NCBI GenBank assembly: GCA_964058805.1
Contig: CAXKVV010002168.1
Coordinates: 186,001 to 250,000, forward strand
DNA from: Schoenoplectus triqueter
Lineage: Eukaryota; Streptophyta; Magnoliopsida; Poales; Cyperaceae
Length of the DNA: 64,000 bases
Reading direction: 5' to 3'
Shown in pieces: positions 2,897 to 37,225 of the stretch. Both the position numbers and the translations under genes were made by a program. The notes under the pieces are model-generated. The model saw nothing but the letters and a program-made list of their open reading frames with translations. It was not told the origin of the DNA and ran no database searches. Within the stretch, counting starts at the first letter, position 1, and every line of letters starts with the position of its first letter.

Positions 2897-2897
2897 G
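1..2897. repeat. 2,081-bp macro-repeat inside the left satellite array
   Basis: The block 1-816 recurs at 2082-2897 with the same order of variant monomers and only scattered differences. Open frames ending at 254, 420 and 652 have near-identical counterparts ending at 2335, 2501 and 2733, each exactly 2,081 bp further on. This is one extra level of repetition above the monomer and the 9-unit repeat. It probably arose by unequal exchange or segmental duplication within the array. The second copy ends at the inversion point. Confidence 0.8.
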
Positions 2898-5800
2898 AGG
2901 GCGTACCGAGGGCGTCGGGTCCCGTTTTAATGTTTTGGGCGCCCGGACTCGTTTTCGGCGGTACCGAGGTTGTCGGGTCCCGTTTTCATGTTTTGCGCGC
3001 CCGGACTCGTTATCGGTGGTACCGAGGGCGTCGGGTCTCGTTTTCATGTTTTGGGCGCCCGGACTCATTTTCGGCGGTACCGAGGTCGTCGGGTCCCGTT
3101 TTCATGTTTTGCGCGCCCGGACTCGTTTTCGGCCGTACCAAGGGCGTCAGCTCCCGTTTTCATGTTTTGCGCTCCCTGACTCGTTTTCGGCGGTCTCGAG
3201 GGCGTCGGGTCCCGTTTTCGGCGGTATCGAGGGCTTCGGGTATCGTTTTCATGTTTTGCGCGCCCGAACACATTTTCGGCGGTACCGAGGCCGTCGGGTC
3301 CCGTTTTCATGTTTTGCGCGCCCGGACTCGTTTTCGGCGATACCGAGGGCGTCGGGTCCCGTTTTAATGTTTTGCGCACCCGGACACGTTTTCGGCTGTC
3401 TCGAGGGCGTCGGGCCCCGTTTTAGGCGATATCGAGGGCGTCGGGTATCGTTTTCATGTTTTGCGCGTCCGAACTCATTTTCGGCGGTACCGAGGCCGTC
3501 GGGACCCGTTTTCATGTTTTGCGCGCCGGGACTCGTTTTCGGCGATACCGAGGGCGTCGGGTCCCGTTTTAAAGTTTTGCGTGCCCGGACTCGTTTTCGG
3601 CGGTCTCGATGGCGTCGGGTCCCGTTTTCGGCGGTACGGAGGGCGTCGTGTCACATTTTCTTATTTTGCGTGCCCGGACTCGTTTTCGGCGGTAACGAGG
3701 GCGTCGGGACGCGTTTTCATGTTTTACGTGCCCGGACTCGTTTTCGGCCGTACCGAGGGCGTCGGCTCCCGTTTCCATGTTTTGCGTAACCCGACTCGTT
3801 TTCAGCGCACCCAAGGGCGTCGGCACCCGTTTTCATGTTTTGCGCTCCCTGACTCGTTTTCGGCGGTCTCAAGGGCGTCGGGTATCGTTTTCATATTTTG
3901 CGCGCCCGAACTCATTTTCGGCGGTACCGAGGCCGTCGGGTCCCGTTTTCTTGTTTTGCGCGTCCGGACTCGTTTTCGGCGATACCGAGGGCGCGGGTCA
4001 CGTTTTAATGTTTTGCGCGCCCGAACTCGTTTTCGACTGTCTCGAGGGCGTCGGGCCCCGTTTTCGGCGATATCGAGGGCGTCGGGTATCGTTTTCATGT
4101 TTTGCGCGCCCGAACTCATTTTCGGCGGTACCGAGGCCGTCGGGTCCCGTTGTCATGTTTTGCGCGCCCGGACTCGTTTTCGGCGATACCGAGGGCGTCA
4201 GGTCCCGTTTTAATGTTTTGCGCGCCCGGACTCGTTTTCGGCGGTCTCGAAGGTGTCGGGTCCCATTTTCGGCGGTTCCGAGGGCGTCGTGTCTCATTTT
4301 CTTGTTTTGCGCACCTGGACTCGTTTTCGGCGGTACCGAGGGCGTCGGGTCCCGTTTTCATGTTTTGCGCGCCCGGACTCATTTTCGGCGGTACCGAGGG
4401 CGTCGGGTCCCGTTTTCATGTTTTGCGCGCCAGGACTCATTTTCGGCGGTACCTTGGGCGTCGGGTCCCGTTTTCATGTTTTGCGCGCCCGGACACGTTT
4501 TCGGCGATACCGAGGGCGTCGGGTCCCGTTTTCATGTTTTGTGCCCCCAGACTTATTTTCGCGGTCTCGAGGGCGTCGGGTCCCGTTTTCGGCGGTATCA
4601 AGGGCGTTGGGTATCGTTTTCATGTTTTGCGCGCCCGAACTCATTTTCGGCGGTACCGAGGCCGTTGGGTCTCGTTTTCATGTTTTGCGCGCCCGGACTC
4701 ATTTTCGGCGATACCGAGGGCGTCGGGTCCCGTTTTAATGTTTTGGGCGCCCGGACTCGTTTTCGACTGTACCGAGGTCGTCGGGTCCCGTTTTCATGTT
4801 TTGCGCGCCCGGACTCATTATCGGCGGTACCGAGGGCGTCGGGTCTCGTTTTCATGTTTTAGGCACCCGGACTCGTTTTCGGCGGTACCGAGGTTGTCGG
4901 GTCCCGTTTTCATGTTTTGCGCGCCCGGACTCGTTTTCGGCCGTACCGAGAACGTCGGCTCCCGTTTCCATGTTTTGCGCGCCCCGACTCGTTTTCGGCG
5001 GTCCCGAGGGCGTCAGCTCCCGTTTTCATGTTTTGCGCTCCCTGACTCGTTTTCGGCGGTCTCGAGGGCGTCGGGTCCCGTTTTCGGCGGTACGGAGTCC
5101 GTCGTGTCACATTTTCTTGTTTTGCGTGCCCGGACTCGTTTTCGGCGGTAACGAGGGCGTCGGGTTGCGTTTTCATGTTTTGCGTGCCCGGACTCGTTTT
5201 CGGCCGTACCGAGGGCGTCGGCTCCCGTTTCCATGTATTGCGCGCCCGGACTCGTTTTCGGCGCTCCCGAGGGCGTCGGCTCCCGCTTTCATGTTTTGCG
5301 CTCCCTGACTCGTTTTCAGCGGTCTCAAGGGCGTCGGGTCCCGTTTTCGGCGGTATCAAGTGCGTTGGGTATCGTTTTCATGTTTTGCGCGCCCGAACTC
5401 ATTTTCGGCGATACCGGGGCCGTTGGGTCTCGTTTTCATGTTTTGCGCGCCCGGACTCGTTTTCGGCGATACCGAGGGCGTCGGGTCCCGTTTTAATGTT
5501 TTGGGCGCCCGGACTCGTTTTTGACTGTACCGAGGTCGTCGGGTCCCGTTTTCATGTTTTGCGCGCCCGGACTCGTTATCGGCGGTACCGAGGGCGTCGG
5601 GTCTCGTTTTCATGTTTTGGGCGCCCGGACTCGTTTTCGGCGGTACCGAGGCCGTCGTGTCATATTTTCTTGTTTTGCGTGCCCGGACTCGTTTTCGGCG
5701 GTCCCGAGGGCGTCAGCTCCCGTTTTCATGTTTTGCGCTCCCTGACTCGTTTTCGGCGGTCTCGAGGGCGTCGGGTCCCGTTTTCGGCGGTATCGAGGGC

Positions 5801-6889
5801 GTCGGGTATCGTTTTCATGTTTTGCGCGCCCGAACTCATTTTTGGCGGTACCGAGGCCGTCGGGTCCCGTTTTCATGTTTTGCGCGCCCGGACTCGTTTT
5901 CGGCGATACCGAGGGCGTCGGGTCCCGTTTTAATGTTTTACGCGCCCGGACTCGTTTTCGGCGGTCTCGAAGGCGTAGGGTCCCGTTTTCGGCGGTACGG
6001 AGGCCGTCGTGTCACATTTTCTTGTTTTGCGTGCCCGGACTCGTTTTCGGCGGTAACGAGGGTGTCGGGTGGCGTTTTCATGTTTTGCGCGCCCGAACTC
6101 ATTTTCGGCGGTACCGAGGCCGTTGGGTCCCGTTTTCATGTTTTGCACGCCCGGACTCGTTTTCGGCGATACCGAGGGCGTCGGGTCCCGTTTTAATGTT
6201 TTGGGCGCTCGGACTCGTTTTCGACTGTACCGAGGTCGTCGGGTCCCGTTTTCATGTTTTGCGCGCCCGGACTCGTTATCGGCGGTACCGAGGGCGTCGG
6301 GTCTCGTTTTCATGTTTTGGGCGCCCGGACTCGTTTTCGACGGTACCGAGGCCATCGTGTCACATTTTCTTGTTTTGCGTGCCCGGACTCGTTTTCGGCA
6401 GTCCCGAGGGCGTCAGCTCCCATTTTCTTGTTTTGCGCTCCCTGACTCGTTTTCGGCGGTCTCGAGGGCGTCGGGTCCCGTTTTCGGCGGTATCGAGGGC
6501 GTCGGGTATCGTTTTCCAGTTTTGCGCGCCCGAACTCATTTTCGGCGGTACCGAGGCCGTCGGGTCCCGTTTTCATGTTTTGCGCGCCCGGACTCGTTTT
6601 CGGCGATACCGAGGGCGTCGGGTCCCGTTTTAATGTTTTGCGCGCCCGGACTCGTTTTCGGCGGTCTCGAAGGCGTCGGGTCCCATTTTCGGCGGTACGG
6701 AGGGCGTCGTGTCACATTTTCTTGTTTTGCGTGCCCGGACTCGTTTTCGGCGGTAACGAGGGCGTCGGGTTGCGTTTTCATGTTTTGCGTGCCCGGACTC
6801 ATTTTCGGCCGTACCGAGGGCGTCGGCTCCCGTTTCCATGTATTGCGCGCCCCGACTCGTTTTCGGCGCTCCCGAGGGCGTCGGCTCCC
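2897..6889 (+). repeat. 58-bp satellite array, forward orientation (left of the retrotransposon)
   Basis: This is the same 58-bp satellite in the opposite orientation to 1-2896. Units read GGCGGTACCGAGGGCGTCGG, then GTCCCGTTTTCATGTTTTGC, then GCGCCCGGACTCGTTTTC. The switch is at about 2897, within GAGTCCGAGGGCGTACC, and no spacer of other sequence is present. The array ends cleanly at 6889 where the LTR begins. The last 36 bp (6854-6889) match the first 36 bp to the right of the retrotransposon (39686-39721), so the monomer register is kept across the insertion. Confidence 0.95.
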
Positions 6890-7197
6890 TGTGCGACCCT
6901 TTTTCGCGCGCCACGCACCGCCGCTGGGCGATGGGTTACGGAAGAAGGACACGGAGATCCCTCCCGAGCGTGCATCTGCTAGGTGTCGGCTGATTCTGCC
7001 GTTTAGAGAGATTTGGATGCACATTCAGGGGGTTTTTTAGTGATTGTGAGTTCTTGTAGATTCCGGTGGGCGCAAGCCCCCACCGTTAATTACCCTGGGC
7101 TACTAACCTCGAGGCACCTCTGGATCTTTGAAAGGGAGAAGCAAATAATATAGTTAAAGGATGGTCAAGTGGTCGTCTGGGTTCACAAAAGGGGTCC

Positions 7198-7490
7198 ATG
7201 GAAGACGAACCTACTAACAGATCGGTTCAGTCTTTACCGCTTCAAGAGGTAACCTTACTACAGATCAGATTAATCTCTTTGAAGGGGTTCGAGGTGAGTC
7301 TACTACAGAACGACTCGACCTATTTAATCCTATGGAAGACGAACCTACTACAGATCGGTTCAGTCCATACTACCTCGAGAGATAACCTTACTACAGATCA
7401 GGTTAATCTCTTCAGAGAGGTTCGAGGTGAGTCTACTACAGAACGACTCAACCTCCGTTGATCTAGAAGATAAACCTACTACAGAACTGT
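7198..7490. repeat. 134-bp tandem repeat in the LTR end segment
   Basis: Two copies of a 134-bp unit start with ATGGAAGACGAACCTACTA at 7198 and ATGGAAGACGAACCTACTAC at 7332, followed by a partial third. Each contains several short CCTACTACAGA-type motifs. The same block lies in the other LTR at 26840-27132. An 87-codon open frame follows the repeat in both LTRs, but it has no recognisable domain and I do not call it a gene. Confidence 0.75.
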
Positions 7491-8118
7491 TCAATCTTAA
7501 CTAGTCAACAACCAATCGCATAAAATACAACTCGAAGCACTGAGCCGGTTGATCTTGAGGTTGGTGAATCAGGAGAAGGGTGGATATGGCCCACGTGTTT
7601 CTTCTCACCGATCTTCTAGATCATGAATTCGAAGCACTAAGCCGATTCATAAACCTAGGAAACACAGTTACACACAATGTCAAACCTGAAGCACTGAGCC
7701 AGCTTAACATTGAGGCATGTGTTAGTGAAGGAACCTACCTACAGAACGGTTCGCATTCACTGTTTTGTGGATGAATCTACTACAGAACGATTCAATCTCA
7801 CGATCTCGAGAGATGAACCAGAAGACAAACTCATCGACGGATGAGTTCAGTCTTGCTAGCTCAAATGGTCATGAATTACTTGTTCATGACACCGAGTCAT
7901 TAAGATGTCATTCTCATGTAGCTTTAGTCATTCTTCAGCGAGCGTCAAGATGTTCTTGTCCCGACTAATCATTCTATATGTTGCATTACTTGTGCAAAAC
8001 TACTATGTTGCCCTACACCCCTTGTGTGAGCGTATCTAATCATGAGTTACTTGCTCATGGTAATGAGTCATTAAGATGTCACCTCTCTCGGACATCGTAA
8101 TGTTCTTCTTCTTCAAGG

Positions 8119-8385
8119 TCGACATATTTCTTCATGTTGATGTCGCAGCCCTGGTTATTCTTCATCAAGCGTCAGGATGTTCTTGTCTCGACATATCTTC
8201 TCATGTTGCTGTCCAAGCCTTAGTCATTCTACGTCAAGATGTTCTTGTCTCGACATATCTTCTCATGTTGCTGTCCAAGCCTTAGTTATTCTACGTCAAG
8301 ATGTTCTTGTCTCAACATATCTTCTCATGTTGATGTTGCAACCTTGGTTATTTTTCGTCAAGATGTTCTTGTCCTGACTAATCGT
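8119..8385. repeat. 62-bp tandem repeat (VNTR) in the LTR, longer copy
   Basis: Units of about 62 bp are built around CGTCAAGATGTTCTTGTCTC and CATATCTTCTCATGTTGCTG, in roughly four to five tandem copies. The right-hand LTR has one unit fewer in the matching block (27761-27965). This accounts exactly for the 62-bp difference between the two LTRs: matching positions are 19,642 apart before the block and 19,580 apart after it. Confidence 0.85.
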
Positions 8386-8450
8386 TCTAAATGTTATATC
8401 ATGTGTGTAAAAATCCTCATGTTGCTCCACACCCCTTGTGTGAGTATTTT

Positions 8451-9660
8451 TGTTCATCTCAAAAATGTAAAAAGCTTATAATATCTTCCATTATTATCTC
8501 TATTATAAAGATGCATTTATTTATTATTTATTTATTATTATTTTTTATTTTTAAACTCTATTTATCTATGTAGAAAATTATTTACAAAAATAATAGGAAA
8601 TGGGTTAGCTATTAACTAGAATTTATTTATATTTTTGGGATTTTTATAATAGCTAAAATAGTAGAATTTTATTTTTATTATTTCTAAACTCTATTTACTT
8701 TGTAGAAAATCACTTACAAAATACTAGAAAAATAAAATGGCTATGATTTTTATTTGTATTTTTAAAATATTTATAATAGCCAAAGTAATAGAATTTCATT
8801 ATTATATTTCATTATGTTGGAACATTATTCATTATGTAAAAATTATTTACAAATCAAAAAGATGATTAGCTATATTATTTTTTACTTTTATTTTTGGGAT
8901 CTATAATAGCTAAAAAGAAATCATTATTAATATTCTATCCTATTTATTGTAGTTTTTCATTATATGTTCCTTTTTATTATTTCTATTTATTATCTATAGA
9001 AAAATATAAGATTTTTATTATTATCATCATTATTTGAAAATAGCCATAAGGGATAGAATTCATTATATTCTTTATTACAACTATTATTTTATTGCATTTT
9101 ATCCATCAAAAATATTTTTATTGTATATTTGTATAGAAATAACAAAAAGAAATACAATTCATTTTATTATAAAACCTTATTATTATTCTTTATTATAGAA
9201 GAAAATGCATTTAATATCTATTATTTTGTGCTATTTATTTTTATTATATTTTTTTTTACAGAAAATATCAACATAATCTCTATTATTTATTTATTTTTAT
9301 TTATCAAAGAATAGAGCTAATCTCATTATCTATTATGGCATATTACTATTGTCATTATTATTTCATGAAAAATCACTTGAAAAATCAATAAAATATATCT
9401 AGTTATTATTCGTGATTTTTATTTGAATTTTTGGAATTTTTATAGTATTTAAAATGACAAGTCAAAGCTAAGTCAAATATATCAATATATGTAATATCTT
9501 TTGCTTTTAAATTATTTCAACATGATTATATTTTTAAAACTGGAATATTATTATATAGAAAAATAGTATAAAAAATAAGGAAATTTTAGAAATAAATTTG
9601 AGTTAATTTGGAGTTCAGGAGCATTTTCAAATGATTTATTTACTATATATAATTAATGTT
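8451..9660. other. AT-rich segment of the LTR, no gene
   Basis: This 1.2-kb stretch is dominated by TATTTATTATT-type sequence, and phrases such as ATAATAGCTAAAA recur in degenerate form. Only short chance open frames occur. The matching block in the right LTR is about 28031-29240 and is almost unchanged. Nothing recognisable is encoded. It may be an old divergent tandem repeat or a spacer. Confidence 0.6.
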
Positions 9661-9685
9661 CTGTTATTAATTGATTAATGGGCTT

Positions 9686-9801
9686 AATCTGGGCCTTTGG
9701 ATCCATATCAAGATACCGACAACTCTTTATTTATCTTTCATATTCACTTGGGCCGCCAGATTGAATTAAGATTTACACTGTATGGATCAAAGGCCCAGAT
9801 T
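9686..9801. repeat. 22-bp inverted repeat (hairpin) in the LTR
   Basis: AATCTGGGCCTTTGG followed by ATCCATA at 9686-9707 pairs with TATGGATCAAAGGCCCAGAT at 9781-9801 with a single one-base bulge. The loop is about 73 bp. The copy in the right LTR lies at about 29266-29381. It could be a relic of a small inverted-repeat transposon or an RNA hairpin. No function can be assigned. Confidence 0.65.
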
Positions 9802-10279
9802 GATTCATACTTTAATTTTCTAAATATTCAATAGCCCAGATCCTTTGGATTCGTCCCAATATTTGTGCGGCCTTTCAAGATTAGTGCAAGAGATCCTTTC
9901 TCTGTCTCTCCTCTACCGTGCTTCAAGATGCGTGCCAGGAGGTTGATTCCGGTGCTCCGGCGATCTGATCGACGATCGGACACTACAGTCAGTGTCGCCT
10001 TGATGTGAGGAGTCGATTAACACATTCCGATCATGGATTAATACGACGTATCGCTGGCATTGACCCTCCTTTTTACTGGTCTCGTTCCGATCGGTACCAA
10101 TTGCATCTCCTTCTCAAATTGAGTCATTTTCATCTCAATTCCTTGTTCTTGTTAACTTATTTACATGATTCTAAGCCCTAACTATGTCTAGAAGTGACTC
10201 AATTATGACAATTACTCATATTATGGGGTTAATCGCGATTGAACAGTAACTGAAGTCGGTACCGATTATGAATTCAGTG

Positions 10280-10510
10280 TCAATCATTATATTTCCAAGC
10301 AATTGTTAAGATTTCTTTGATCATTAAGATGTATAGCTCATCGCCTATGCAATAGACACTAATCCAAGTGATTAACTTGATTGATTATAGCATTTGGATG
10401 TGCCATTGCTGTATCAGCTTGGATCACAGCGACAGACTTCAAGAATTCAACCCAATTACTTGATCCAAAGCTGTAATCTTGATACATTTGCTTGGAAATA
10501 TAATGATTGA
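10280..10510. repeat. 23-bp perfect inverted repeat within a longer imperfect one, LTR
   Basis: TCAATCATTATATTTCCAAG plus CAA at 10280-10302 is matched perfectly in reverse complement at 10488-10510. Similarity continues outward in a degraded form (AATCGCGATTG near 10211 against CAATTGCGATT near 10589), so the original structure was probably about 380 bp. The same pair lies at 29860-29882 and 30068-30090. It resembles an old foldback or MITE-like insertion, or a structured RNA region. Confidence 0.65.
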
Positions 10511-11295
10511 GAGGTTAGTGACCTTCGATCAATCAATTATCACAATTTGAGCTAGGAGATCACTCGGTCTTCGACTAGCTTTACTGACAATTGCGATTTT
10601 ATTGCCGTTTACTCGATTCAATCAAAGAAGAAGCAAGGAAACATCAAAGAAGTCATTCAAACAGCAAGGCGATGATGTAATGAAGTGATTTAGTCAAAGA
10701 AATCAAGAAATTCGACAAAACATGAAAAAAATTGCAGATAATGGATAACAGTACCAGATTTAACTGAAATTAATCGAAATTGGATGTAATTACATTTCAA
10801 GCTCTTGTCTCTATCAATTATACTCACCTATCCTCTGTCTCTGTAGCTCTACCTCTTTGAATTGATTGTTAATGGTGGAAGGGAGTGTGTATACCGAGCT
10901 CTCAACACTTGTTGAGTTCAATCGGTTAGTAAAGCTTCTAATTCGCTCTCTAGGTAGTTTCTTGAAGGGCTATGGATATTCTCTCTTTTTTTTCTGTCTC
11001 TAATTCTGAGGGTTTATATAAGCTAGGGGTATGTGTATTGCTAAATGGTGATTGGTTGGGTAATTAGTGCTTGGATTACGGTTCCAACTCAATCTCAATC
11101 CTTGGTTCAATCTAAATCAGTGGCTAGGATGCATTTGTGTTTTCTAATTACTCAATTGAGTCACCCTTTAGCAGTTAAGCCGTTTTGAGTTAGTTACACA
11201 CATTCTCTTATTTACCCCTTTGCCACTATTCGGCCTTCACACCCTTGCAAGCCTCTCTAGCCCTTTCTAGAACTTTCCAGGCCTTATACTATGCA

Positions 11296-11302
11296 TATAT
11301 AA
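11296..11302 (+). promoter_or_regulatory. Candidate TATA box of the antisense gene, left copy
   Basis: TATATAA lies in the context GCATATATAAGCTGCTAG, about 30 bp upstream of a leader that contains no ATG until the predicted start codon at 11815. A second TATA-like TTATATAA lies at 11014-11021. It is inferred to drive plus-strand transcription out of the LTR into the internal region, antisense to gag-pol. The copy serving the right-hand gene is at 30876-30882. Confidence 0.45.
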
Positions 11303-12221
11303 GCTGCTAGCATGCTCCCTTAGCTCCATTTTACAGAATTGATCTCAATTCACATCTTCTCCTCTATTATAAGCCATAATCAAGTTTCAAACTTTCATCT
11401 CGATTCCTTGCTTGTTTCTTCTGTCTCAAGGCTTCACCATCATCAATTCAGTGTCAGGCAACTCCTTGTGCTCTTACCTAGTCGATTTGTAAGCTCCATC
11501 ACAGTGCTTGATCAACTCACTTCTAGGCCGAGTTGTGAGTTGGTGCAACTCTTACATCCAGCATTCAACTCTTCTCAATTATCACTCTAACACCATCGCC
11601 TGAGGTCCTAGAAGCTCTCCCAGCCATCAATTGCAAGTTTTGATCTTCAATTGATAAGTTCAAGATTTTAATTCGAGGTAATTGCTTCTGTCCTATCTCT
11701 CTTTGTGTTGCATTATTTTAAAATCTAATATAATACACATGTTCTCCTTTGTGTAATGTAGCTAAGGCCAGGAGTGATCAACTTGAAACTCAGCCCTTTG
11801 TTCAATCTCCATTGATGGCGCCTTCCATGGTTTCGGCCGTCGAGAGGAAGAAGAAGAAGAGAAGGAGGGGAGAAGGGTCGGGTTCTTCTCTACCTGTGCC
11901 TGGCACACGTGAGCCAAAGCATAGAAGAAGAAGAGTGCAGAGGGAGGGTCCCCAGGCGCCAGGTGCATACACTCTCTTTCTTTTTATTTAAATTCCAATT
12001 AATGCTTCTGTGTGGACTTGGCTTGCCATCTATTCATGCATCATAGGTTCATAACCTGACAGTGGGCCCCATATGTAAGGTTACTGAGTCTAGGTTTATA
12101 GATATCATTAGTGGCTGATTAGTGCATGATTAGAGTTAATTGATATGATCTGGCACGATTTGATTGGCTTATTAGTTTAATCACCTTCCTTTTATCTCTG
12201 ATTATTCACTAACCGATGCTG

Positions 12222-12420
12222 AGGTGGCCTTGTGATATGGTGCCATGTGGCACAGAGCTGGGTGAGGTGGCCTCCTCTGGCCGTGCCATATGGCATAGGG
12301 TTGGGTGAAGTGGCCCTGTGGTGTAATGCCATGTGGCACTAGGGTGGTGAGGTGGCCCACTGGCTGTCTGCCACGTGGCACTGAGGTGGGGCCCACCTGT
12401 CAGTGACTCATACCAGGGTG
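12222..12420. repeat. Degenerate ~45-bp repeats in the LTR
   Basis: GTGAGGTGGCC and GTGAAGTGGCC phrases alternate with TGCCATGTGGCAC-like phrases at roughly 43-55 bp spacing, four to five times. The last unit carries a perfect G-box. The copy in the right LTR is at about 31802-32000. The block sits inside predicted intron 1 of the antisense gene. Confidence 0.6.
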
Positions 12421-12465
12421 GGGCCCACTTGCTGACATGGCCCAATGAGAGGCTGCCACGTGGCA
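12369..12465. promoter_or_regulatory. Two perfect G-boxes in the LTR
   Basis: TGCCACGTGGCA occurs at 12369-12380 and again at 12454-12465. It is a 12-bp palindrome with a CACGTG core, the typical binding site of plant bZIP and bHLH factors. The pair is kept in the right LTR at 31949-31960 and 32034-32045. Read on the minus strand they lie about 1.3 kb inside the LTR start. Read on the plus strand they are downstream of the antisense promoter. Role in stress or ABA-type response is inference. Confidence 0.5.
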
Positions 12466-13762
12466 CACTCTCTCTCTTCGCTTATTTTACACCTTCTGTG
12501 TTTCTTGCACCCAGTTTGTACCCAGAGCTGTTATTATCTCCAATTTGTACCCAGAGTTGCTCTGATTAAATCTCAGCCTTTGATTAATCCATTTATTCTG
12601 CTTTTATCTTCCCTGAATTTATTTTAATAGCTCCACTTATCCAAAAATCATGAAAATTTCACCAAAAATCCCTAAAATCATGATGATCACCCCTGTAATT
12701 TTTAATTCCATTTTTACCCTTGCCTCTCTGAATTAAAAATTCTTCTATCCATAAAACCTTATTTCTTCTTCAGAATTAATCCCAGATTTCATTTGTAGCT
12801 CAGTGTCTCTGCCAATTATCTCTCTCTTGCAGAAACCACCCTAACTAAATACCAATTAGACTTATATTGATATTCATTAGGGCTTGATCTGATCAACAGT
12901 TGATTACATGTCAACAGTTGATACAAATCTAGACTTGATCAGATGGTTGCTCCCAGCTTTGGCACCTGATCAGTCTTGTGAAATTGACTTTTAATCCCTT
13001 AACATGAGGGTGACTTGGTCAAAGAACTGACTACTTATCAGTAATTGACACAAATCAAAGCATGGTTAGGTGGTTGCTCACAGCTTTGGCACCAGGTCAG
13101 CCTTGAAAGCAAAATCACATTTGGAATTTCTCATGACTAGTTGCATCAAAATGCTAGCTTGGCATTGACATCATTTCATGTAGCATAGGGATTATACTGT
13201 TTCAGCTCCTTTCTAGGGTTAGCTCCAAGGGCAGATTTTTAGGGTTTAATTCTGACTCCTATAATAGGTCACTGAGGTGTGGGGTCCACCTGTCAGTGAA
13301 AATGGTCACATGGGTGACTCATCAGATAGGCTAGGTTTATGTTGTTAGATCCATCTACAAGGGACTGCCAGGTGGGTCCCATTTGTCAGAGAAAATGCAA
13401 TCAAATGGCTGACCCATCAGGAGATTTTCTCTCTCTGAAATCTCCCGAGGGTCAGCCACCTCGAATGAGTAGGAGGTGGTGGGGTATTTATATCCTCGTC
13501 TTTCACCCTAATATTTCATTGTGGGATTAATGGATTTGTTCCGGGGTTAAGCAGCGACCTCTTCTGATTAGTGGGCCATCTTTCATTGCTTTCTCTTCTT
13601 CCCTCTTCTCATGATTTATCATTAATCATCAATTTATTTTCATTTATTCATCTACTCATCCTTGAAATTTTTCAAGGGTAAACAAAGAGCCACCCACCAA
13701 AGCGGGTCCCGAAGATTTTAGAAAATTAAGGGGGCTGCTTTGGTGCACATATTCGTCGCACA

Positions 13763-13791
13763 TTTTTCTTTTCTATCTCCCTCCTTCCTTT
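13763..13791 (-). promoter_or_regulatory. Polypurine tract of the left element
   Basis: On the minus strand this is an almost unbroken run of A and G (one T) ending exactly at the TGTGCGAC start of the 3' LTR, as expected for the primer of plus-strand DNA synthesis. On the plus strand it reads as a pyrimidine tract about 30 bp upstream of the predicted splice acceptor TTATTCTAG at 13811-13819, so the same bases may help splicing of the antisense gene. The copy at 33343-33371 belongs to the truncated element. Confidence 0.8.
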
Positions 13792-16700
13792 GTTATTGAC
13801 TTTATCGCCTTTATTCTAGATTCGACCATCCCTCCATATGGCACGATTCCTAGACGTCCTCGGAGTCATTATCTCTCTTTCTGCGAAGATCCGGAGGACT
13901 GGATGCCCACCGTTAGGGTTACACGCGGCACCCCCATACATCTTCGAGCTGGTGGTTTGATTTTTCGCGACGAGCAGGCTCACGATATTACACCCCTACT
14001 GCCTCGATATCTTTCAGCCGTAGCACCTCCTGTTCATCTCCTTGGCAAGGAGATGATCGATGGAGAGGCCTCTCGCTGGGCTAGCATCGACTTCAGTCTT
14101 CCACTTAGATATCATGGGCACCAGTTAGACTGGATTCGCTACATCCTTACACAGGAGAGGGATGCTCTTTGTAGTTCAGGTGTGTACAGTTGTATTTTCT
14201 TGTCGATGTTTCGGTATCACATTGACACACCTTGGCTTTGTGCTTTCTGCGAGCGGTGGAGTTACTCCACCAACACTCTCTTTATTGATGATCGAGAGTT
14301 GACTCCCACATTATGGGAGATTCGTCAGCTGACCGGTCTACCCGTATTCGGTCATTATTATGACGAGTTCTTATTATCAGAGGATGACTTGAGGGACCCT
14401 TCCCTGCATCCAGCTTCTCTTCGGGAGGTGTACAGGATTTATGATCAGTTGAGAGGGCAGCACCTTTCTGTCCCCTTCAGATTCTGGATATCTTATTTCA
14501 CTGATCGGCTACATTCTCATACCGAGTGTTGTGCCTCTACTCGTGACCCTTTTGGTACCGGGCATCTCGGCCTTTTCAGTGACGTGGCTGCTCCCTCGCA
14601 GGACACTCTGTGCTCACATGAGATCGATCGTGAGACTTATTTGACAGCCTTTCTCTCCTGGTGGATTTGTTTCTTTCTACTCCCCAGTTCGGGGGCTCGT
14701 ACCATCCGTCCCTCGGCATTTGTGATGGCGAGTCAGATTGCTCGTGGTGAGAGAGTCTCATTGGCCGTACCCGTCTTGGCCAACATCTACAGGAGTTTGT
14801 GAGGTTTGACATCTTCACGTGATCCTTCTCACTGTAGGGAGTTGGTACCCTGGCATTTCATTAGTGGGTGGTTGCATATGTATTGGTCTGGCCTGTATCA
14901 CCCATCCTTATCATCAGATTTGAGGGCCCACTTACCCATCTTGGGTGACTTAGCCGGTACAGAGCCTGCCTCCTTGACCCCAGAGGATGCTTGTTTCAGA
15001 TTCTACCGTAGCCATGATCATCTGAGGCTAGCTCGCACCAGCTTAGCTACTCATCATCTGGCTGGGGCTACTTGCAGATCTCTAGTTGATGCGACATTTC
15101 ATTCTAGAGGTTCTTCTTCTTTCAGAGATCAGCCAGATATCTTAGACTATTTCATCAGTCTCCGCCACGGGTTCTTGCCACTCCGTATTGGCGATTATGC
15201 TTTCATAGAGCCTTATTCTCCACACAGATGTGCACATCAGTTTGGTTTAGACCAGGACGTGCCTCTCTTTCTCCTTCGTCCTGAGTCTTTAGCGATGGAC
15301 CTTGAGGGCCTCGGGTGGTGCTACTCACATCTATTTCGCTTAGGGACAGGTTCTCACTTTCAGACGGTACCTGCTTCCCGTACACCCACTTTCTCGAGAC
15401 GCTACATCTGGTGGTATTATAATGTCATTCGCTCGTACCAGTCATACACTCCTTCAGTGGTGGTACGCAGTACTTGCCCCAGAGGCAGTTCATCGTCTAG
15501 CCTCTCTTATGATGACTTCATCTCTTTCCCACTTCTTTCTTCAGTGCCAGTGGATTTTCAGGGGTTAGATAGCCGCTGTCTTCGTTCGTCTACTAGGACT
15601 CAGCTCACTGGTACACTCCAGATTCACCCCTTCCTTATTTTAAGCTTAGATTTCAAGCTAGATTTTGACAGATTTCTTTTTGATCAGATTCTGCGTATGA
15701 GTATGATGAGGCAGAGCCCGGCTTCTCAGTCCCTCGCCCGAGAGCTGTTGACATTTATTCTCATTCACCTACCGAGCCACTGGCTTCAGCCGCCGTGGGG
15801 AGTGATCGAGACGGCGCTTCTCGGCCGCCTTCCCCATCTTCTTTTCCTTCTCCCATTCCGGGTGATTTTCTTTACTGACTCGCCTATCCTTATTCGGGCG
15901 TACTTCATTTACATCTCTAATTAAGGTTTATTTTTCAGCTCGTGGGACATCTCCTTTAGAGGCTGCCCGAGATGACATCGTAGCAGATTCGTCGGCGCCG
16001 GCGAGCACTGCCCTCTCAGGGTTTTGCACTGACCTTACCGTCGCAGGTTCGTGTGCTTCATTTAATACTTAGTTGCCAGTATGCACTAGTATTTTCATTC
16101 TTACATGTAGATTTTACAGGCCCTGAGGCCGATGACATGGCATCTCCACACCGCTCGGAGTCCTTCTTCTACGACGGTCCTGCCTCACCGTCGATTTTAC
16201 TAGTACCCACCGGGGATGGTGACTCCTTTGATGTGGTTCTGGGGCCGGTGCTCACTCTTGTACGATCAGAGGAGGCTTCTTCAGAGCAGGGGAGTCCATT
16301 GGCTGTCGAGCCCGCAGGCGACGAGCCGCTCTTGATCGAGGGAGGGCCATCTCATGCCTCTTCATCTCCCGATGGGCAGCCTCTCATGACTATAGATGGT
16401 GGAGCCTCATCAGATAGTCGGGTGGAGGACTCGACTGAACAGGCTGCAGTCGATTATAGTTCAGAGCTGGATGAGAGTTGGCTGGTGGAGCAGCTATTCG
16501 ACAGCCCAGAGACGGAGGTCCTGGCTAGCGAGGGTCTCACTGAGCCTCATGCCTCTCCCGGTACCTTATATTTCCTTTGTTGTTTGCCCGTATTTTACTT
16601 TTCATGTACTTATGCTTCTTCATTTTATTTTGTAGCCGGGTCTGGTACACCTGCGGGTCCTCCTGAGGCGACCGACATCCCTATCCCTGACTCAGTCCCG

Positions 16701-17645
16701 CCTGTCTCAGGCGACGAGGCGATAGGTTAGATCTTCTCTACCTTCTATTTCTTCTTTGATTATAACAATTTGTTTAACCCATTTATTTTGTTTGCAGATG
16801 TTACATTGAGGGATGTGCAGCTCGCCTTGGCCGCGCTGGCGGATGCACTCCGAGACACCTTCTTCGGAGACTATTCGCTAGATTTTGAGATCCTGGACTC
16901 TCTGCCCGATGGCTTCTCCTTTGATTGGTATAGGCTGATGCGGGATACCATCGCGCCAGCTCTACTCATTGCACCTCGTCTTGAGAGTACCTTCATTTCT
17001 AGGAGGTGTGAGGAGCTACTCGGGGCTTACCAGGATGCGAGCTCTCTCGTATACCAGCACGAGTTGGAGATCCATGAGCTACGCAGGCATTTGGAGGCTG
17101 CTCGACTCCGCTATCTTCAGCGGCTCTCTTCTTGTGCCACTCTCTGTTCCATGGGAGTCAGTGGTGGGCCTGCTCGACTGCTCGTGCAGGAGCTAGAGGA
17201 CCACAGATTATCAGTGGAGGGCTTCTCCCGACATCTAGCGGGACGTCTCCCGGAGCTGCAGATTCACTCGAGTGCCCGGGATAGTGCCTTCTCTCAGTTC
17301 TTAGATTTCGAGGCGGCTTCGGAGGAGGATAGGCACTCCCTCCATGTTCATTTGGAGACCATTAGCACTGTGTTATTAGAGTTGGAGTCCCGCTTTTTGG
17401 GCCCGTAGACTATACTTTCCATTTCTTCTTTTCTCCTTTTCTTTTGTTATACTTGATATAGGATACCTTGACATTTGTCATTTTGAGCTCTTTGTTGTGG
17501 ATGATGCTTGCCTTTATTGTTATCCCTTCGTCGCTTCCTCTGCAGCGCGAGGAAGTATTTTATTCATCTCATGCTGTGCACCTCCAATCTTATTTGTAAA
17601 AGCGCCCGATTACAACTGCTTCATTCTTTCGCAGCGTCTAAACAT

Positions 17646-17651
17646 AATAAA
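17646..17651 (+). terminator. Candidate poly(A) signal of the antisense gene, left copy
   Basis: AATAAA lies about 240 bp after the stop codon of the last exon (17406-17408), in an A/T-rich context. It is the first canonical signal downstream. The matching site for the right-hand gene is 37226-37231. Assignment is by position only. Confidence 0.4.
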
Positions 17652-18005
17652 AGGAAAATCTTTACAACATCCTATTACATTCATTCTATGCATGTTCTTC
17701 CTTATTTATTACAATACAGAACTTAAGTAACCGTGGTATTTTACGGATACCGAACCTGTCTGTATTGACCTCTAGGCCGGGTACAGAATAAACCCGTTTA
17801 TCCCTTTATTACTGATGGATAAACTTACCAGTATCAATTGGATTATGGATGCAATTGATAACACCATTTTGTGGATGCTCCTTGTATATTTAGTTGACAT
17901 TTATTTGTGGAAGCTCACCCACTCTCCCCTCATTTGTGCACCGTTGCGTGCAGAAGTGGAAGCTCACATTCACTCATCTTCACTCAATTTGTTTGGTGGG
18001 GGTAC

Positions 18006-18485
18006 TACCCTCAAACATCCATCACGCATCCCTGCGAGATAGGCTTTCATCGGGTAGGTTCGCTCTCCATGACCCGAGTCACTTCTTTAAGCGAATTACT
18101 TTATTTGACACTGAATGTCGGGCAAAAGCATAAACCCTTAGTCTGACCCCTCCATGACCTATTTTGGGATTAGAAACAGATCACCTCCTTGGGCGTGTGG
18201 TACTTTTGCGGATGAATGTACCCAACCTGGTTTTTATATTTTGGCTACCCTCAAACATCCATCACGCATCCCTGCGAGACAGGCTTTCATCGGGTAGGTC
18301 CGCTCTCCATGACCTGAGTCACTTCTTTAAGCGAGCCGCTTTGTTTAACATGAAATGTCGGGTACAAGCATAAACCCTTGGTCTGACCCCTCCATGATGC
18401 GCCGTGGGATTATGACACGTCATTTCTTCAGGCGTGTGGTGCTTTTACGGATGAATGCACCCAACCTGGCTTTGTATAACACTCA
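18006..18485. repeat. 240-bp direct repeat between integrase end and antisense gene
   Basis: Two tandem copies begin with CTACCCTCAAACATCCATCA at 18006 and 18246. They share TCATCGGGTAGG, CACTTCTTTAAGCGA and AACCCT-rich phrases with about 85-90% identity by eye. The same pair lies at 37586-38065. The whole interval 17409-19152 has no convincing gene. The segment 18486-19152 contains only AT-rich and unremarkable sequence. Confidence 0.75.
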
Positions 18486-19152
18486 TGGTGTCGGGGACAA
18501 AGGTGGCAACCCCTTATTGAAAAGATTTTATTATATTTTTTTATTTTTTATCAATGTGTAAGGAAAATAGGTTTTTATTGTTTTATTTATATATCCTTTT
18601 ATTTTATTAGAAGAAGGCAGATTTTTGGTTATTAGTGATACATGTTACTAATAGTACGAGAGTTATTTATTTATATGCCCTCGGAAGCGACTATTTACTA
18701 GCCACCAATTTGCTCGACCTATCCCTTGGCTTGCGCCGCGGGCGACCAATATGAGCAACTTTCGTCATTTGGGCAACAGATAGTTTGAGGGACAAACTGC
18801 AAACCCTGCCCATTTTTGTGTTTATTCTGTATCAAATGGACAAACCCAGTGGTATTTGTATTGTGAGCCCAAACACCAAAGCTCTCGCCTTACATTCTCG
18901 CATGGTTTTGGCGTTGAATTCTCTTATTCTATATATATTTTTTTTATTTTTATTGTAGGGCTAAATGTGTTTGTGTGGTTTTGGATTTTTGGATGCATTC
19001 TATTTACAAATGCACAAGTAGGGTTTTTGGGATTTTTATGCAAAAGCGGAGGTTAGACATGGGTTTGTGTTTCGTACACGTGTGTGTAAGCGAACACTTA
19101 TTCCCTCCTTATTTATTTACAATAGATACTACTCGGTGGGCCCCGCTCCGGG

Positions 19153-21748
19153 CTATGTGTAGTACTTCTTCAGATATCGCCCATTAATCGGTGGCATGGG
19201 CCTTTCACCTTCATGGTCTATGAGTTGGTATGCGCCGCCCTCGTATACCTTCTCGATTACATATGGCCCTTCCCAATTTGGAGAGAATTTTGGACCGATG
19301 TGCCGGCCAATGATCGGCCCTCTTAAGGACAAGAACAAGCTCCCCTTGTTGAAACGCCCTGACTCGCGCCATTTTGTCATATGCCCTTGCCATTTTTGCC
19401 TGATATATTTCGAGGTTCTGCTGGGCTATCAGTCTTTCCTCGTCCAGGGCATCCAACTCATCCAATCTAAGTTGTTGGCATTCATCCATAGTCATATCGT
19501 TTTGCATAGCCACCCGCAATGATGGTAATTCCACCTCGAGAGGGAGAACGACTTCAACCCCAAAAGCCAGAGAGTACGGGGTAGCTTGCGTAGGCGTTCG
19601 GTACATAGTTCGATAGGCCCATAATGCCTCCTGTAGACGATTATCCCAGTCTCGTTGGTTGCCGTCCACGGTCTTTTTTATAATATTGATCAGGGTTTTG
19701 TTAAAGGCTTCGGCCAGGCCGTTGGCTCTCGGGTTATAAATGGACGAGAATCTCCAATCAATATTGAATTGCTCCGCCAGGGCATAGACTTTAGAGCTCT
19801 TGAAGGCCGTCCCGTTATCAGATATTATCCGTTGTGGGGTGCCGAATCGGTAAAGGATGTGTGTCTTAAAGAACTTGACCACATCGGATGCTTTAACTTC
19901 TTTGAGTGGGATGGCTTCGGCCCATTTTGTAAAGTAATCTGTCACCGCCAGGATGAACCGGTGACCTCTCGACGTAGGAGGGTCTATGGGTCCCACTATG
20001 TCTGTGCCCCACATATTAAATGGCCAGGACGCTACCGTGGGGTGCAATGGGTTTGGCGCTTGATGTATAAAAGGGCCATGTATCTGGCACATGCGGCACT
20101 TCTTTGCGTGCTCCTCACAATCAGCTACCATTGTGGGCCAATAATATCCCATTCGCTTGATCTTTAACTTCATTTTCGGCCCAGACTGATGTGCTCCACA
20201 TAGCCCGGAATGAACTTCTTTCATAACCTGCTCGGCTTCATGCCCTGATACACATCTCAGCCATAACTGATCATAAGACCTCCGGTATAGCGTATTGCCC
20301 ACATACGCATACCGTAGTACTCGCTTTCTTAGTTGATCAGCAATTCTTTTGTCTTTGGGGAGGGTACCATGCAGGAAATATTCGATAAACGGCTGTCTCC
20401 AATCATCATCTTCTCCAGTTATCATTGTTTCTTGGCATTCCATGCTTTTTGGTTCAATATTTTCATTATTCGCATTGTCTGTCGTCTGACACAATGATAA
20501 TGGCCTTCTATTGCGGACGATGATGTGGATTTCTGGCTCTGTTGGTTCACCCAGCTCCTTGGCGAGTTTGGCCAACGCATCTGCTTCACCGTTCACAGCC
20601 CTCGTGACCTTCTCAATGGACACGTACGGGATTTTCTTCATTAATTCCATGGCCTTCTGGTGATATTGTATTAGCTCCAGCTTTAGGACCTTGTATTCGC
20701 CAATTATTTGGTTTATTATCAACTGTGAATCCCCAAAGATGCGCACAGCCTTGATTTCCAGCTCCAGTGATAGCTCTAGTCCGGCGATGAGTGCCTCATA
20801 CTCTGCTTCATTATTTGTGCATGGTTCGGTTAAAGCCAGAGAATGTCGTATTATCCCGCCTTTCGGGGTTACGAAGACTAGTCCCGCGCCAGCTCGCACA
20901 GTTGGGACTCCCGGGCCCGCGATCGGCTTGATCGACGAGGCACCATCAAAGTACATCTCCCATATAGGACTTCCTTCTTCAACATGTAGAGTTTCCTCAT
21001 CGGGAAAGTCACATTTTAATGGGGAGTCATCTTGAATCGGGTGTGCAGCCAGAAAATCAGCCAGCGCCTGCCCCTTGATCGCTTTTTGCGGTGTGTATGT
21101 GATATCAAACTCGGTGAGAATGATCGCCCATTTGGCCAATCTACCCGTCAACATTGGCCGAGTCATCAGGTATTTGAGAGGATCTACCTTCGATATTAAA
21201 ATGATTTTGTGGGCTAGCATGTAGTGCCTCAATTTCTTCACCGCAAAGATTAGGGCTAAACAATGCTTTTCAATCGGCGAATACCCGTGTTCTGCCCCCA
21301 CCATCATGTGGCTTAAGTAATATAGCGCATTTTGGTTACCATCCTGGTTTTCTTGTGCCAACAGAGCTCCCAAGGATCCATCCAAGGCGGTTGTATATAG
21401 GATGAGTTCCTTCCCGGGTATGGGCGCCGCCAATACTGGAGGGTTGAGTAAATATGCCTTGATTTCTTCAAAGGCTCGCTGGCACTCGCCATCCCACTTA
21501 AACGGGATATTCTTCTTAGTTAGCCGGGTGAAGGGTTGGATTTTACCCGATAGGTTGGCTATGAACCGCCTAATGTACGCCAATTGCCCTTGCAAGGATC
21601 GCAATTATTTTAAATTCTTCGGCGGGGATAGTTCAGTGATTGCTTTGATCTTGCTCGGGTCTATCTCAATTCCCCTATGGCGTACCACAAACCCCAGAAA
21701 TTTACCGGATGATACCATGAATGCGCATTTCAACGGGTTTAATTTGAG
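19153..21748 (-). pseudogene. pol: RT remnant, dual RNase H and integrase, left copy
   Basis: Reading leftward, 21748-21605 encodes only the last part of reverse transcriptase (LKLNPLKCAFM, then KFLGFVV) and ends in an in-frame TAA at 21605-21607. The palm domain with its YxDD motif is absent. From 21604 a 797-codon frame follows: RT-linked RNase H (about 21530-21015), a second RNase H (about 20960-20570; YFDGASS, NNEAEYEAL, FGDSQLI, NGEADALAKL, so all acidic residues are present), integrase zinc finger (HSGLCGAH ... CRMC) and integrase core with D near 20001, D near 19819 and E near 19710. One extra C at 19318-19321, absent from the other copy, shifts the frame in the C-terminal domain; the true end (PPINGRYLKKYYT) is in another frame and stops at 19153. 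No chromodomain is seen. This copy cannot make reverse transcriptase. Confidence 0.88.
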
Positions 21749-22529
21749 CGCATGTCCCGGAACGGGGTTCGCTCGTCATTTCTTTGAGTAGCTCGGAGTT
21801 ATAGATTGCGGTTTGCAGGTTTTCAATCATTATCATGATTTCATTGTGTTGGGTCTTGATATCCTGCATTACTTCCCATTGTTCAGACACCTCTCTTCTA
21901 TTATTTTCAACTTGATGCCTTATTTCGTCGATCGCATTCCAGACACGACCTTCGAAATTTTCCCGCCATGAGCGTTCTTCATTCATAGGCCTCGGCCTAA
22001 CCGGGTTATCCCTTCCGCTACCGGGTCCCGTGTTGATCATATATGACTCCTCACTTTCATCATCTGTTTCGGGCCCTTTATATGGCTTCTTGAGGATGTG
22101 ATAGATGATTTCTTCGTCAGATTCCTCTTCCCAGGGTTGACGATCATGGTCAGACTCTTCTCCCGAGGTAATATCACCCGAGTCGTTGGAATCTTCGGAG
22201 TCTTCTCCCGAAGTTGCCTCTATGATCTGAATTTGAGGGGTGTTGGCAGGCTTAAAATTGAAAATGACCTCCTCTTCAGAATCACTTGAATTGATTTCGC
22301 TCGGTTTTGTCTGGGCTTTATATGTAGCCACCTGTTTGAAGCGGAAGGTCGCTTCCTCACCCGACTTTCTTCCGGGTCTTTGGGCTCGAGCACCTCGGGG
22401 CTTAATATTGAATTTAACCTCTTCTTCTTCTCCAGATGAGGTATCAAATTTAGGGCCTTTACTGAAGGGTTTCTGACTTGCTTTTGTTACTGGCCGGCTT
22501 GGCGCCACGGTAGATTTAGGCAGAAAATA
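21702..22529 (-). pseudogene. Acidic linker between protease and RT, left copy
   Basis: This region continues the gag-protease reading frame after the TAG at 22530-22532 and stays open for about 270 codons. It is rich in Ser, Glu and Asp (TSSGEEEE, SSDSEEEV, SGEDSEDSNDSGD) and then becomes helical (WNAIDEIRHQVENNRREV). It then runs into sequence that belongs to RT in another frame, which places the RT deletion breakpoint at about 21750-21790. Linkers like this between protease and RT are usual in Tat-group elements. No enzymatic motif is visible. Confidence 0.6.
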
Positions 22530-23873
22530 CTAGGCGTCATTGAATTTAATCTCATGCACCCCGAATGGTTTGACATCTCCATCAATTCTCTTTTGTCTAC
22601 CATTCTCAATATATTTCAGGCATTGGTGCAGAGTAGAGGGTATGACCTGATTACTGTGAAGCCACGGGCGACCCAGCAAAGCCCAATAAGAAGTTTCAGC
22701 GTCAATAACATAGAATTTAGTAGGCGCTTTTAGGCTTCCACATTGCAGGTTCAGAGTTATAGCTCCCAGGGCCTTTTGGGAGTTTTGATTGAAGCCATGG
22801 ATGATCACCTTTTCGTCAGATAGGTTCTTCACATCTAAGGTGATGGTCTTCAGGGTTTTGAGCGGCATAATATTGATTGAAGACCCTGCGTCGACCAGGA
22901 TGCGGCCAATCTTTTGCCCTCCACAATTTCCGGTGATGTACAACGGGCGGTTGTGGTCGACGGTGCCTATTAGGAGGTCGTCATCTGTGAAATTTATACA
23001 GGCGGCCCGCTTGGCGATGAATAGGGCTTCCTGCATGTTTTGCTCAACAAAGTATGATTTGTACTTCTCAGGATCTTGCAAAGCCTGGATTAGTACCTCC
23101 CTTAGGTCTTGTGACATCATCAATGCGTCAAATATGCTTAATAGCGCTGGAATCTTACGCAGATGTGCCAACACATTATATTCTTCGCCCGTCGATCGGG
23201 TCTTTTCTGGGTTCTTGCTTGGGTTCTCAGCCTCTTTACCTTTATTCTGGGCCTTGTCATTTCCCTTATCGGATTCTTTGGGAGCTTGTCTCTCAGGTTT
23301 ATAAGTCCCGGACCGGAGCACGGCTTTGCATTCTTCGTTCTTGGTCCCAGAGGTGCTTGCTTCCCCTTCGTCATTTGGGAAGAACATCTCCTCTAAAGTT
23401 GGCATATCTTCGTCGTGAGAAGAATATACCATGTTGCACGAAGCACCCCAGATCTCTTCGCTTTCTTCTTTATTTATTTCTTCATCTGCGTCTCCCTTCT
23501 TTTGACCTAAGGTTAGCTTCTCCCAGTCTTCTTTGGAGATGAAATGTTGGAGGGTGATCGCCTCGGGACTGCCCTGCTCGTACTCTTCAATTTTATTCTT
23601 TTTGGACTTGTTGCTTCTATGCTTCTTTCTCTTGTTAAGAACCTGGTCTTGGCTCTGGTCCACCTTATAATATACCATGGGCTTTGGTGGGACCACTGGC
23701 GTGATGTCGTCTTTCCATTTCATGCCAGGTTCTTTCTTAAGGGTTTTAAGCATTTTAATCGATTTCTTCGATAAGTGCGTAGTCCATTGCTCTTCTTGAT
23801 TTTCGCTTAACTGGCCCGGGACCTTCTCTTCTTCATGAGAGATCATATTGGCCTGTTCATGGGCTGATGGGCT
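22530..23873 (-). pseudogene. Retropepsin-type protease region, left copy
   Basis: An open frame of 438 codons in the same frame as gag, entered after the TAA at 23874-23876 and ended by TAG at 22530-22532. The C-terminal half carries the aspartic protease signature DAGSSINIMP (active Asp near 22890) and LLGRPWLH, the usual end of a plant Ty3/gypsy protease. The N-terminal half is charged (Lys/Glu) and looks like a spacer. The stops on either side are single in-frame codons, not frameshifts. Whether they are decay or part of an expression strategy cannot be told from one copy, because the second copy lacks this region. Confidence 0.8.
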
Positions 23874-26390: not shown

Positions 26391-26438
26391 TTCCTGCAAA
26401 AACAAAAATACTTGAAAATCATTAGTCATTTTTAGCGC

Positions 26439-27760: not shown

Positions 27761-27965
27761 TCGACATATTTCTTCATGTTGATGTCGCAGCCCTGGTTAT
27801 TCTTCATCAAGCGTCAAGATGTTCTTGTCTCGACATATCTTCTCATGTTGCTGTCCAAGCCTTAGTTATTCTACGTCAAGATGTTCTTGTCTCAACATAT
27901 CTTCTCATGTTGCTGTTGCAACCTTGGTTATTTTTCGTCAAGATGTTCTTGTCCTGACTAATCGT
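27761..27965. repeat. 62-bp tandem repeat (VNTR) in the LTR, shorter copy
   Basis: This is the counterpart of the block at 8119-8385 with one unit fewer. The core phrase ATGTTCTTGTCTC(A/G)ACATA recurs at about 62-bp spacing. The flanks on both sides are nearly identical between the two LTRs, which marks this as the only sizeable length change between them. Confidence 0.8.
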
Positions 27966-30875: not shown

Positions 30876-30882
30876 TATATAA
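30876..30882 (+). promoter_or_regulatory. Candidate TATA box of the antisense gene, right copy
   Basis: TATATAA in GCATATATAAGCTGCTAG, identical to the site at 11296-11302. It stands about 520 bp upstream of the predicted start codon at 31395, and the intervening leader exon has no ATG. Confidence 0.45.
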
Positions 30883-36988: not shown

Positions 36989-37225
36989 ACTATACTTTCC
37001 ATTTCTTCTTTTCTCCTTTTCTTTTGTTATACTTGATATAGGATGCGTTGACATTTGTCATTTTGAGCTCTTTGTTGTGGATGATGCTTGCCTTTATTGT
37101 TATCCCTTCGTCGCTTCCTCTGCAGCGCGAGGAAGTATTTTATTCATCTCATGCTGTGCACCTCCAATCTTATTTGTAAAAGCGCCCGATTACAACTGCT
37201 TCATTCTTTCGCAGCGTCTAAACAT

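Follow-up and report, generated by a model that had tools for sequence, protein, structure and literature searches.

A probable multi-exon antisense gene with its first coding exon in the long terminal repeat of a Tat-type retrotransposon from Schoenoplectus triqueter

Introduction

The closest described analogue of the gene considered here is HBZ of human T-cell leukemia virus type 1 (HTLV-1), whose antisense RNA is reported to start in the 3' long terminal repeat (LTR), to be spliced, and to carry its start codon in an exon within that LTR (PMC3185765, PMC10186651). The present gene lies on the strand opposite to gag-pol in a Tat-type Ty3/gypsy LTR retrotransposon of Schoenoplectus triqueter, in a window of 64,000 nucleotides (assembly GCA_964058805.1, contig CAXKVV010002168.1, positions 186,001 to 250,000); by the window we mean this whole stretch, and all coordinates below are counted from its first letter. 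What the two genes have in common in their sequence is a start codon in an exon that lies within the 3' LTR. The HBZ protein is described as nuclear and as a regulator of LTR transcription (PMC3185765, PMC10186651), while for the present protein location and function are our inference only. The main form of HBZ has 206 amino acids and a basic leucine zipper (bZIP), whereas the present gene would encode about 1120 amino acids in seven coding exons and includes a plant mobile domain (PMD); no homology is claimed. A bZIP was not found in a Pfam scan of exons 2, 5, and 7 of the second gene copy in the window, which gave only the PMD.

Among plant elements, the nearest counterparts are gene23 of maize Grande and the other aORF-3R of Tat elements (RIRE2, Retand), antisense genes located, as here, between pol and the 3' LTR (PMC7264820). 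Gene23 is reported to have its own promoter and a nuclear product, GENE23 (PMC7264820). The portions of that account available to us describe gene23 and the aORF-3R as open reading frames (ORFs) of the internal region, with mention neither of introns nor of a start in the LTR (PMC7264820). A PMD is reported in 57% of Ogre elements (PMC6317226), and PMD-A1/A2 are said to be encoded only by Gypsy elements (PMC5418596). For the PMD-carrying Ogre elements, ORFs were predicted with getorf, and the source, as excerpted, reports the domain but not a multi-exon antisense gene with a first exon in the LTR (PMC6317226). The Arabidopsis PMD proteins MAIN and MAIL1, described as active in transposon silencing (PMC5418596, PMC7156037), are products of host genes of the PMD-C clade, whereas the present gene is carried by a retrotransposon. 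Surveys of antisense ORFs have, in the accounts consulted, used ORF finders (PMC11963269, PMC6317226), and a review of accessory genes in plant retrotransposons, which regards it as unknown what antisense ORFs do, calls for antisense and spliced transcripts to be looked for (PMC7264820).

A first-pass annotation of the window, made from the letters of the sequence, had proposed an antisense gene that begins in the LTR, and had noted that antisense ORFs, some with a PMD, occur in such elements. The latter is documented for Tat/Ogre elements (PMC7264820, PMC6317226, PMC11963269), and the former interpretation is supported by the analysis reported here: the element very probably carries a multi-exon antisense accessory gene, with a spliced RNA that starts from a promoter in the LTR. 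We found no paper, judging by titles and the beginnings of abstracts in the open-licence literature, on a multi-exon antisense gene that starts in a plant LTR. Antisense ORFs, the PMD in Tat/Ogre elements, and an antisense gene with its own promoter in Grande are all known; only their combination looks new.

The antisense gene model

Seven plus-strand coding exons, between 11815 and 17408 and antisense to gag-pol, join through GT-AG introns that are all in phase 1. They measure 148, 1791, 174, 108, 441, 90, and 611 nt and end on a TAG at 17406-17408; the joined coding length is arithmetically 3363 nt, or about 1120 amino acids. Exon 1 (11815-11962) lies within the LTR and encodes a lysine/arginine-rich N-terminus. 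It is separated by the first intron of the coding region (11963-13819; 1.86 kb), which crosses the LTR edge at 13684, from exon 2 (13820-15610), in which the PMD (PF10536) is encoded. There follow the Ser/Pro-rich exon 3 (15688-15861), exon 4 (15939-16046), the acidic exon 5 (16120-16560), exon 6 (16636-16725), and exon 7 (16798-17408), which includes the stop and encodes a conserved C-terminal domain. The five introns between exons 2 and 7 are short, at 72-77 nt. A putative poly(A) signal, AATAAA, stands on the same strand at 17646-17651 and is retained in 21 of the 27 aligned non-window copies.

A second copy of the gene is found on the plus strand at an offset of +19580, with exons at 31395-31542, 33400-35190, 35268-35441, 35519-35626, 35700-36140, 36216-36305, and 36378-36988. 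The exon model of the first-pass annotation is confirmed as observed in the sequence: all six coding junctions that it named, from 11962/13820 to 16725/16798, show GT...AG. Its additional claim that every exon is open in the frame demanded by its neighbours is true of all seven exons of copy 2 and fails at a single codon of copy 1, an in-frame TGA in exon 2 (14800-14802) that it had passed over.

Conservation across genomic copies

Exons 3-7 were compared at 30 loci (L009-L038) of 40 matches, each matching 15580-17420. L009 and L011 are the window itself and were dropped, leaving 28 non-window copies; the near-identical L010 was left out of rates and kept in splice-site counts. Over the five short introns of these 28 copies, GT is present in 140/140 cases and AG in 137/140. 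The number of length classes of the same introns in 29 copies is 5, 5, 2, 7, and 4 in turn, while exons 3, 4, and 6 are invariant in length (exon 3 with 171 nt of full codons in 29/29), exon 5 has 438 nt of full codons in 20 copies and 414 in nine (a difference of 24), and exon 7 has the same length in all but one copy, which is truncated. When the copies are aligned to copy 2, the length of insertions and deletions is a multiple of three in 36 of 37 exonic and in none of 99 intronic cases, although these counts are neither independent nor alignment-free, because the exonic events are mostly two shared ones and some net intron differences are themselves multiples of three (80 or 74 vs 77 nt). 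Nineteen of the 28 copies run through the end of exon 2 and exons 3-7 with neither stop nor frameshift.

Exons 3-7 are under purifying selection. The ratio of nonsynonymous to synonymous divergence (dN/dS), pooled against copy 2 over 27 copies, is 0.59, 0.25, 0.23, 0.29, and 0.14 for exons 3 to 7, and the all-pairs median is 0.20 (350 pairs). The shifted plus frames give 0.95 and 1.32, and the minus frames 0.97, 1.35, and 0.32, the last of these being the frame whose third positions are in common with those of the plus frame. Coding on the sense strand was rejected as the cause of the codon pattern: every minus frame of exons 2, 5, and 7 contains stops, from 4 to 39 of them. The first-pass annotation had pointed to related elements as the place where lost frames or splice sites would count against the gene, and the comparison favours the gene in 28 copies for exons 3-7, in 30 LTR loci for exon 1, and in 12 of 73 copies for the exon-2 acceptor, the last two of which are described below.

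Between subfamilies, divergence is uneven around 15480-15861: the end of exon 2 differs by 38-47% and the next intron by 49-57%, and exons 4-7 differ mostly by 3-18%. This suggests a recombination breakpoint near exon 3, by which the PMD part may have been exchanged.

Promoter, leader, and first coding exon within the LTR

The LTR is placed at 6890-13684 by other copies of the element. Its inner edge, 13684/13685, is where similarity to copies on contigs C1095, C1175, and C621 stops, and its outer edge, 6890, is set by C1095 and by a satellite border in the window. The LTR ends read TGTGCGACCC...GGGTAAACA, and C1095 has a 5-bp target duplication, AGTAT. An initial estimate of 13763 for the LTR end was rejected in favor of the edge set by the other copies. 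Because of these boundaries the TATA box, leader, and exon 1 described below all lie inside the LTR. That the gene begins there, as the earlier reading had it, accordingly rests on the inner edge in C1095, C1175, and C621 and on the outer edge and target duplication in C1095.

Counts for the LTR refer to 30 of 40 LTR matches, the two in the window (L039, L042) included. A plus-strand TATATAA at 11296-11302, which may serve as the antisense promoter box, is present in 29 of these loci, the thirtieth not being covered at that point. Low divergence starts just 3' of the box (3-21% per 20-bp bin, with one bin above 11%). A putative 5' leader, with a predicted start site at its 5' end, extends over 11330-11677 and is followed by a weak candidate leader intron at 11678-11761, which is found in part of the LTR loci only; both are on the plus strand. 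Exon 1 opens with an ATG in 30/30 loci, each with a lysine/arginine-rich N-terminus, and in 29/30 it reaches a phase-1 CAG|GT donor after 139, 142, 148, or 151 nt, locus L067 being off by one base. Read on unspliced, the frame meets a stop after 53-62 codons. There are 22 distinct exon 1 sequences among the 29, and their median dN/dS is 0.40 (217 pairs of the 22).

At the other end of intron 1, the acceptor AG is kept in 12/12 fetched copies (12 of the 73 exon-2 copies), and in six of these exon 2 has only 64-66% protein identity. An LTR match and exon 2 share a strand and are separated by 1.4-2.1 kb in all 12 pairs that lie within 5 kb of each other, two of them in the window; the places compared were 40 for the LTR and 21 of the 73 for exon 2. 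As a separate observation on the LTR, a segment of about 180-240 bp directly upstream of the antisense TATA (10940-11180) has a counterpart in just 3 of 26 related LTR loci.

Exon 2 and homologous proteins

The PMD family PF10536 matches exon 2 of copy 2 with 92.9 bits, against a cut-off of 34.9. Exon 2 has at least 73 genomic matches, the window included, at 63-100% identity, and 63 of the 73 are stop-free. The antisense orientation recurs across the genome: exon 2 and the reverse transcriptase occupy opposite strands at a distance of 6.0-6.3 kb in 27/27 pairable copies, where 73 exon-2 places were set against 70 of 150 reverse transcriptase places and 46 of the 73 had no listed reverse transcriptase partner. 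Protein homologues of exon 2 extend down to 33% identity, the 33% one being annotated in Rhynchospora pubera. Sixteen of 28 homologues were aligned, and each of the 15 that extend as far as the exon-2 boundary shows a Gly close to it, with mostly hydrophobic residues after the Gly, the pattern expected if a G|GT donor were read through; this is read from protein ends rather than from DNA.

For exon 7, public metagenome data yielded 45 homologues, 19 of which entered the protein alignment. No Pfam family matched exons 5 and 7, NCBIfam gave no match, and a search of solved structures by sequence returned only two chance-level matches.

Counter-evidence and alternative explanations

A number of observations weigh against a spliced gene that starts in the LTR. 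The simplest concern the copies themselves. Copy 1 has the TGA in exon 2, and both elements in the window look defective. The second is truncated, and the first is without a reverse transcriptase core (21605-22529), showing a weak match to RVT_1 positions 180-204 (of 205) beside an unrelated frame. Many reverse transcriptase-bearing frames elsewhere in the genome are 3037-3144 amino acids long and stop-free. Many copies of the gene are also closely related, and the counts given above therefore overstate independence.

A second group concerns splicing. Short introns 2-5 diverge by 7-9.5%, against 10-24% (by exon) at third codon positions of exons 3-7; the pooled short-intron rate of 0.169 is driven by the first short intron (0.518), the other four having rates of 0.071-0.095. 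Use of the introns as a neutral yardstick was therefore rejected, since short introns 2-5 and the LTR part of intron 1 diverge less than the exonic comparison sites. Intron 4 (16561-16635) is 75 nt long and stop-free in the window, creating a read-through ORF at 16053-16730; it is 75 nt and in frame in 14 of 29 copies (68-77 nt in the other 15), and its retention is therefore possible. Among 161 homologous proteins, none contains an exon join, whether searched by pattern (three junctions) or by the position of exon matches. Exons 5 and 6 are both present in 54 of them, and in nearly all of these intron 4 is read through (as 26 residues in 48), although the query behind these matches was the read-through frame itself, which favors such matches. 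In five proteins (P0073, P0091, P0095, P0106, P0127), pieces of exons meet at positions other than the proposed junctions, a pattern that deletions would produce.

These observations bear on an explanation in which nothing is spliced and the antisense strand carries several distinct ORFs, the PMD ORF alone being in use. Published surveys do list such regions as ORFs (PMC11963269, PMC6317226), and the read-through ORF of the window has its parallels in the homologous proteins. We nevertheless regard this explanation as highly improbable, given the retention of GT and AG, the constant phase, the intron length changes that would break the frame, and the selection on exons 3-7.

A third group concerns the start of the gene. 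The leader intron lacks GT in nine loci and AG in eight, with one or both missing in 16 of 30; it is therefore doubtful outside this subfamily. The absence of an ATG from the leader, asserted in the first-pass annotation, depends on its removal: with 11678-11761 spliced out the assertion stands, and otherwise an out-of-frame ATG at 11739, inside that intron, precedes the start codon. Exon 1 itself sits in a fast-changing block that diverges by 20-27%. The LTR part of intron 1 past 12140, at 1-17% per bin, diverges less than exon 1, and the putative leader (11300-11640) is likewise more conserved between LTRs than exon 1 is.

It is conceivable, then, that the product consists of the PMD exon and downstream exons, expressed from an internal promoter and ATG, with the LTR exon optional or part of a separate transcript. 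The exon-2 frame contains a suitable ATG at 13903, transcription of Grande gene23 is reported to be driven by a promoter in the region upstream of gene23 itself (PMC7264820), and the lower conservation of exon 1 than of the surrounding LTR points the same way. However, the LTR exon has kept its ATG in every locus, and its phase-1 donor in all but one, despite the 20-27% divergence of the block, and its dN/dS is 0.40; the exon-2 acceptor is retained in all 12 copies; and the unspliced LTR frame soon meets a stop. An internal start therefore appears unlikely, and a start in the LTR is preferred.

Finally, the antisense transcript could act as RNA only, through double-stranded RNA, small interfering RNA, or transcriptional interference, and yield no protein. 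Antisense RNAs of other retrotransposons have been considered in such a role (PMC7264820), and a leader more conserved than the first coding exon would suit it. But dN/dS values of 0.14-0.59 in the six exons for which they were computed (1 and 3-7), together with an exon 2 that is stop-free in 63 of 73 matches, make an RNA without a protein scarcely credible. Action at the RNA level may exist in addition to a protein.

Proposed mechanism and significance

A protein-coding antisense gene that starts in the LTR would be expressed as follows. A TATA promoter in the 3' LTR, read antisense, would produce an RNA whose leader, start codon, and exon 1 lie in the LTR. Removal of the 1.86-kb intron over the LTR edge would join the basic, nuclear-signal-like exon 1 to the PMD exon, and removal of the five further introns (72-77 nt) would add an acidic and Ser/Pro-rich middle and the conserved C-terminal domain, for a protein of about 1120 amino acids. 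The basic first exon suggests a nuclear protein. Such a protein might be a nuclear regulator, made from integrated copies only, that acts on LTR transcription or on host silencing. We propose this role because of the basic exon 1, the nuclear GENE23, the HBZ layout, and the Arabidopsis PMD proteins in silencing; it is tentative, and in our judgment falls just short of an even chance. Antisense introns would be expected to outlast retrotransposition, because the sense genomic RNA would not be spliced at these signals, and this expectation fits the data. The 5' LTR has the same promoter and exon facing outward, which in the present array would serve the neighbouring copy.

More broadly, we consider it about evenly balanced whether a spliced antisense regulator with its promoter, start codon, and nuclear-signal exon in the LTR has evolved in PMD-bearing Tat elements independently of that of the deltaretroviruses. 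Such a regulator would be made only from integrated DNA, could be driven in arrays by the LTR of a neighbour, and would mean that each insertion points a promoter and a coding exon at flanking host DNA. The exon map, with its conserved junctions, is concrete and directly testable by RNA data. If the gene is as proposed, ORF-based surveys miss about half of the protein, including a likely nuclear signal in the LTR; an HBZ-like layout would have arisen outside animal retroviruses; and a retrotransposon would have gained a means of influencing its own LTR or the PMD-linked silencing by its host.

The elements in the window

A Tat-type Ty3/gypsy LTR retrotransposon is present twice in the window, both times on the minus strand; the segment at 6.9-20.1 kb is repeated at about +19.6 kb with 98.6-99.1% identity (self-BLAST of the window). 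The boundaries obtained from other copies, the LTR ends, and a PBS-like (primer binding site) stretch (26508-26526, minus strand, by direct reading, 5 nt from the inner end of the 5' LTR) together give the layout of the first element as 3' LTR, internal region, and shared LTR, all with the minus strand as sense. The 6.8-kb 3' LTR (6890-13684) is followed by the internal region (13685-26531), with gag, protease, RNase H, archaeal-type RNase H, and integrase on the minus strand, by Pfam, and the antisense gene on the plus strand. The LTR at 26532-33264, placed by self-BLAST and these boundaries, is the 5' LTR of the first element and the 3' LTR of the second. The internal region of the second element (33265-39685, minus strand; 99.1% identity by self-BLAST) holds the second copy of the antisense gene and is truncated, running into satellite DNA near 39685. 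The two elements (6890-39685) are thus a head-to-tail pair with one common LTR, and a similar array occurs on contig C1743, where exon 2 follows both LTRs.

In class, the element has an extra archaeal-type RNase H between RNase H and integrase, which places it in the Tat group: RT_RNaseH (63-166), RVT_3 (236-348), Integrase_H2C2 (456-509), and rve (528-625) follow each other in a single frame by Pfam, where the protease match scores below its curated cut-off. This placement of the additional RNase H is the one given for Ogre and Retand (PMC6317226). The PMD-encoding extra ORF and the very long LTR (6.8 kb) are traits of the Ogre subclade, described as frequent there and not universal (PMC6317226). 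Another Ogre trait is an intron that divides the gag-protease part from the reverse transcriptase part, the two standing in different frames; the observation to set beside it is that of the many stop-free reverse transcriptase-bearing frames of 3037-3144 amino acids in this genome.

Satellite DNA lies on both sides of the elements (1-6889 and 39686-64000) and yields long spurious ORFs. Measured at 50000-56000 only, the satellite has a unit of 58 bp, and longer periods that are multiples of it, among them 116, 174, and 263 bp, also occur. Lastly, both elements contain a 234-bp direct repeat 3' of the antisense gene, which at 18005-18478 consists of two adjoining copies with 85% identity.

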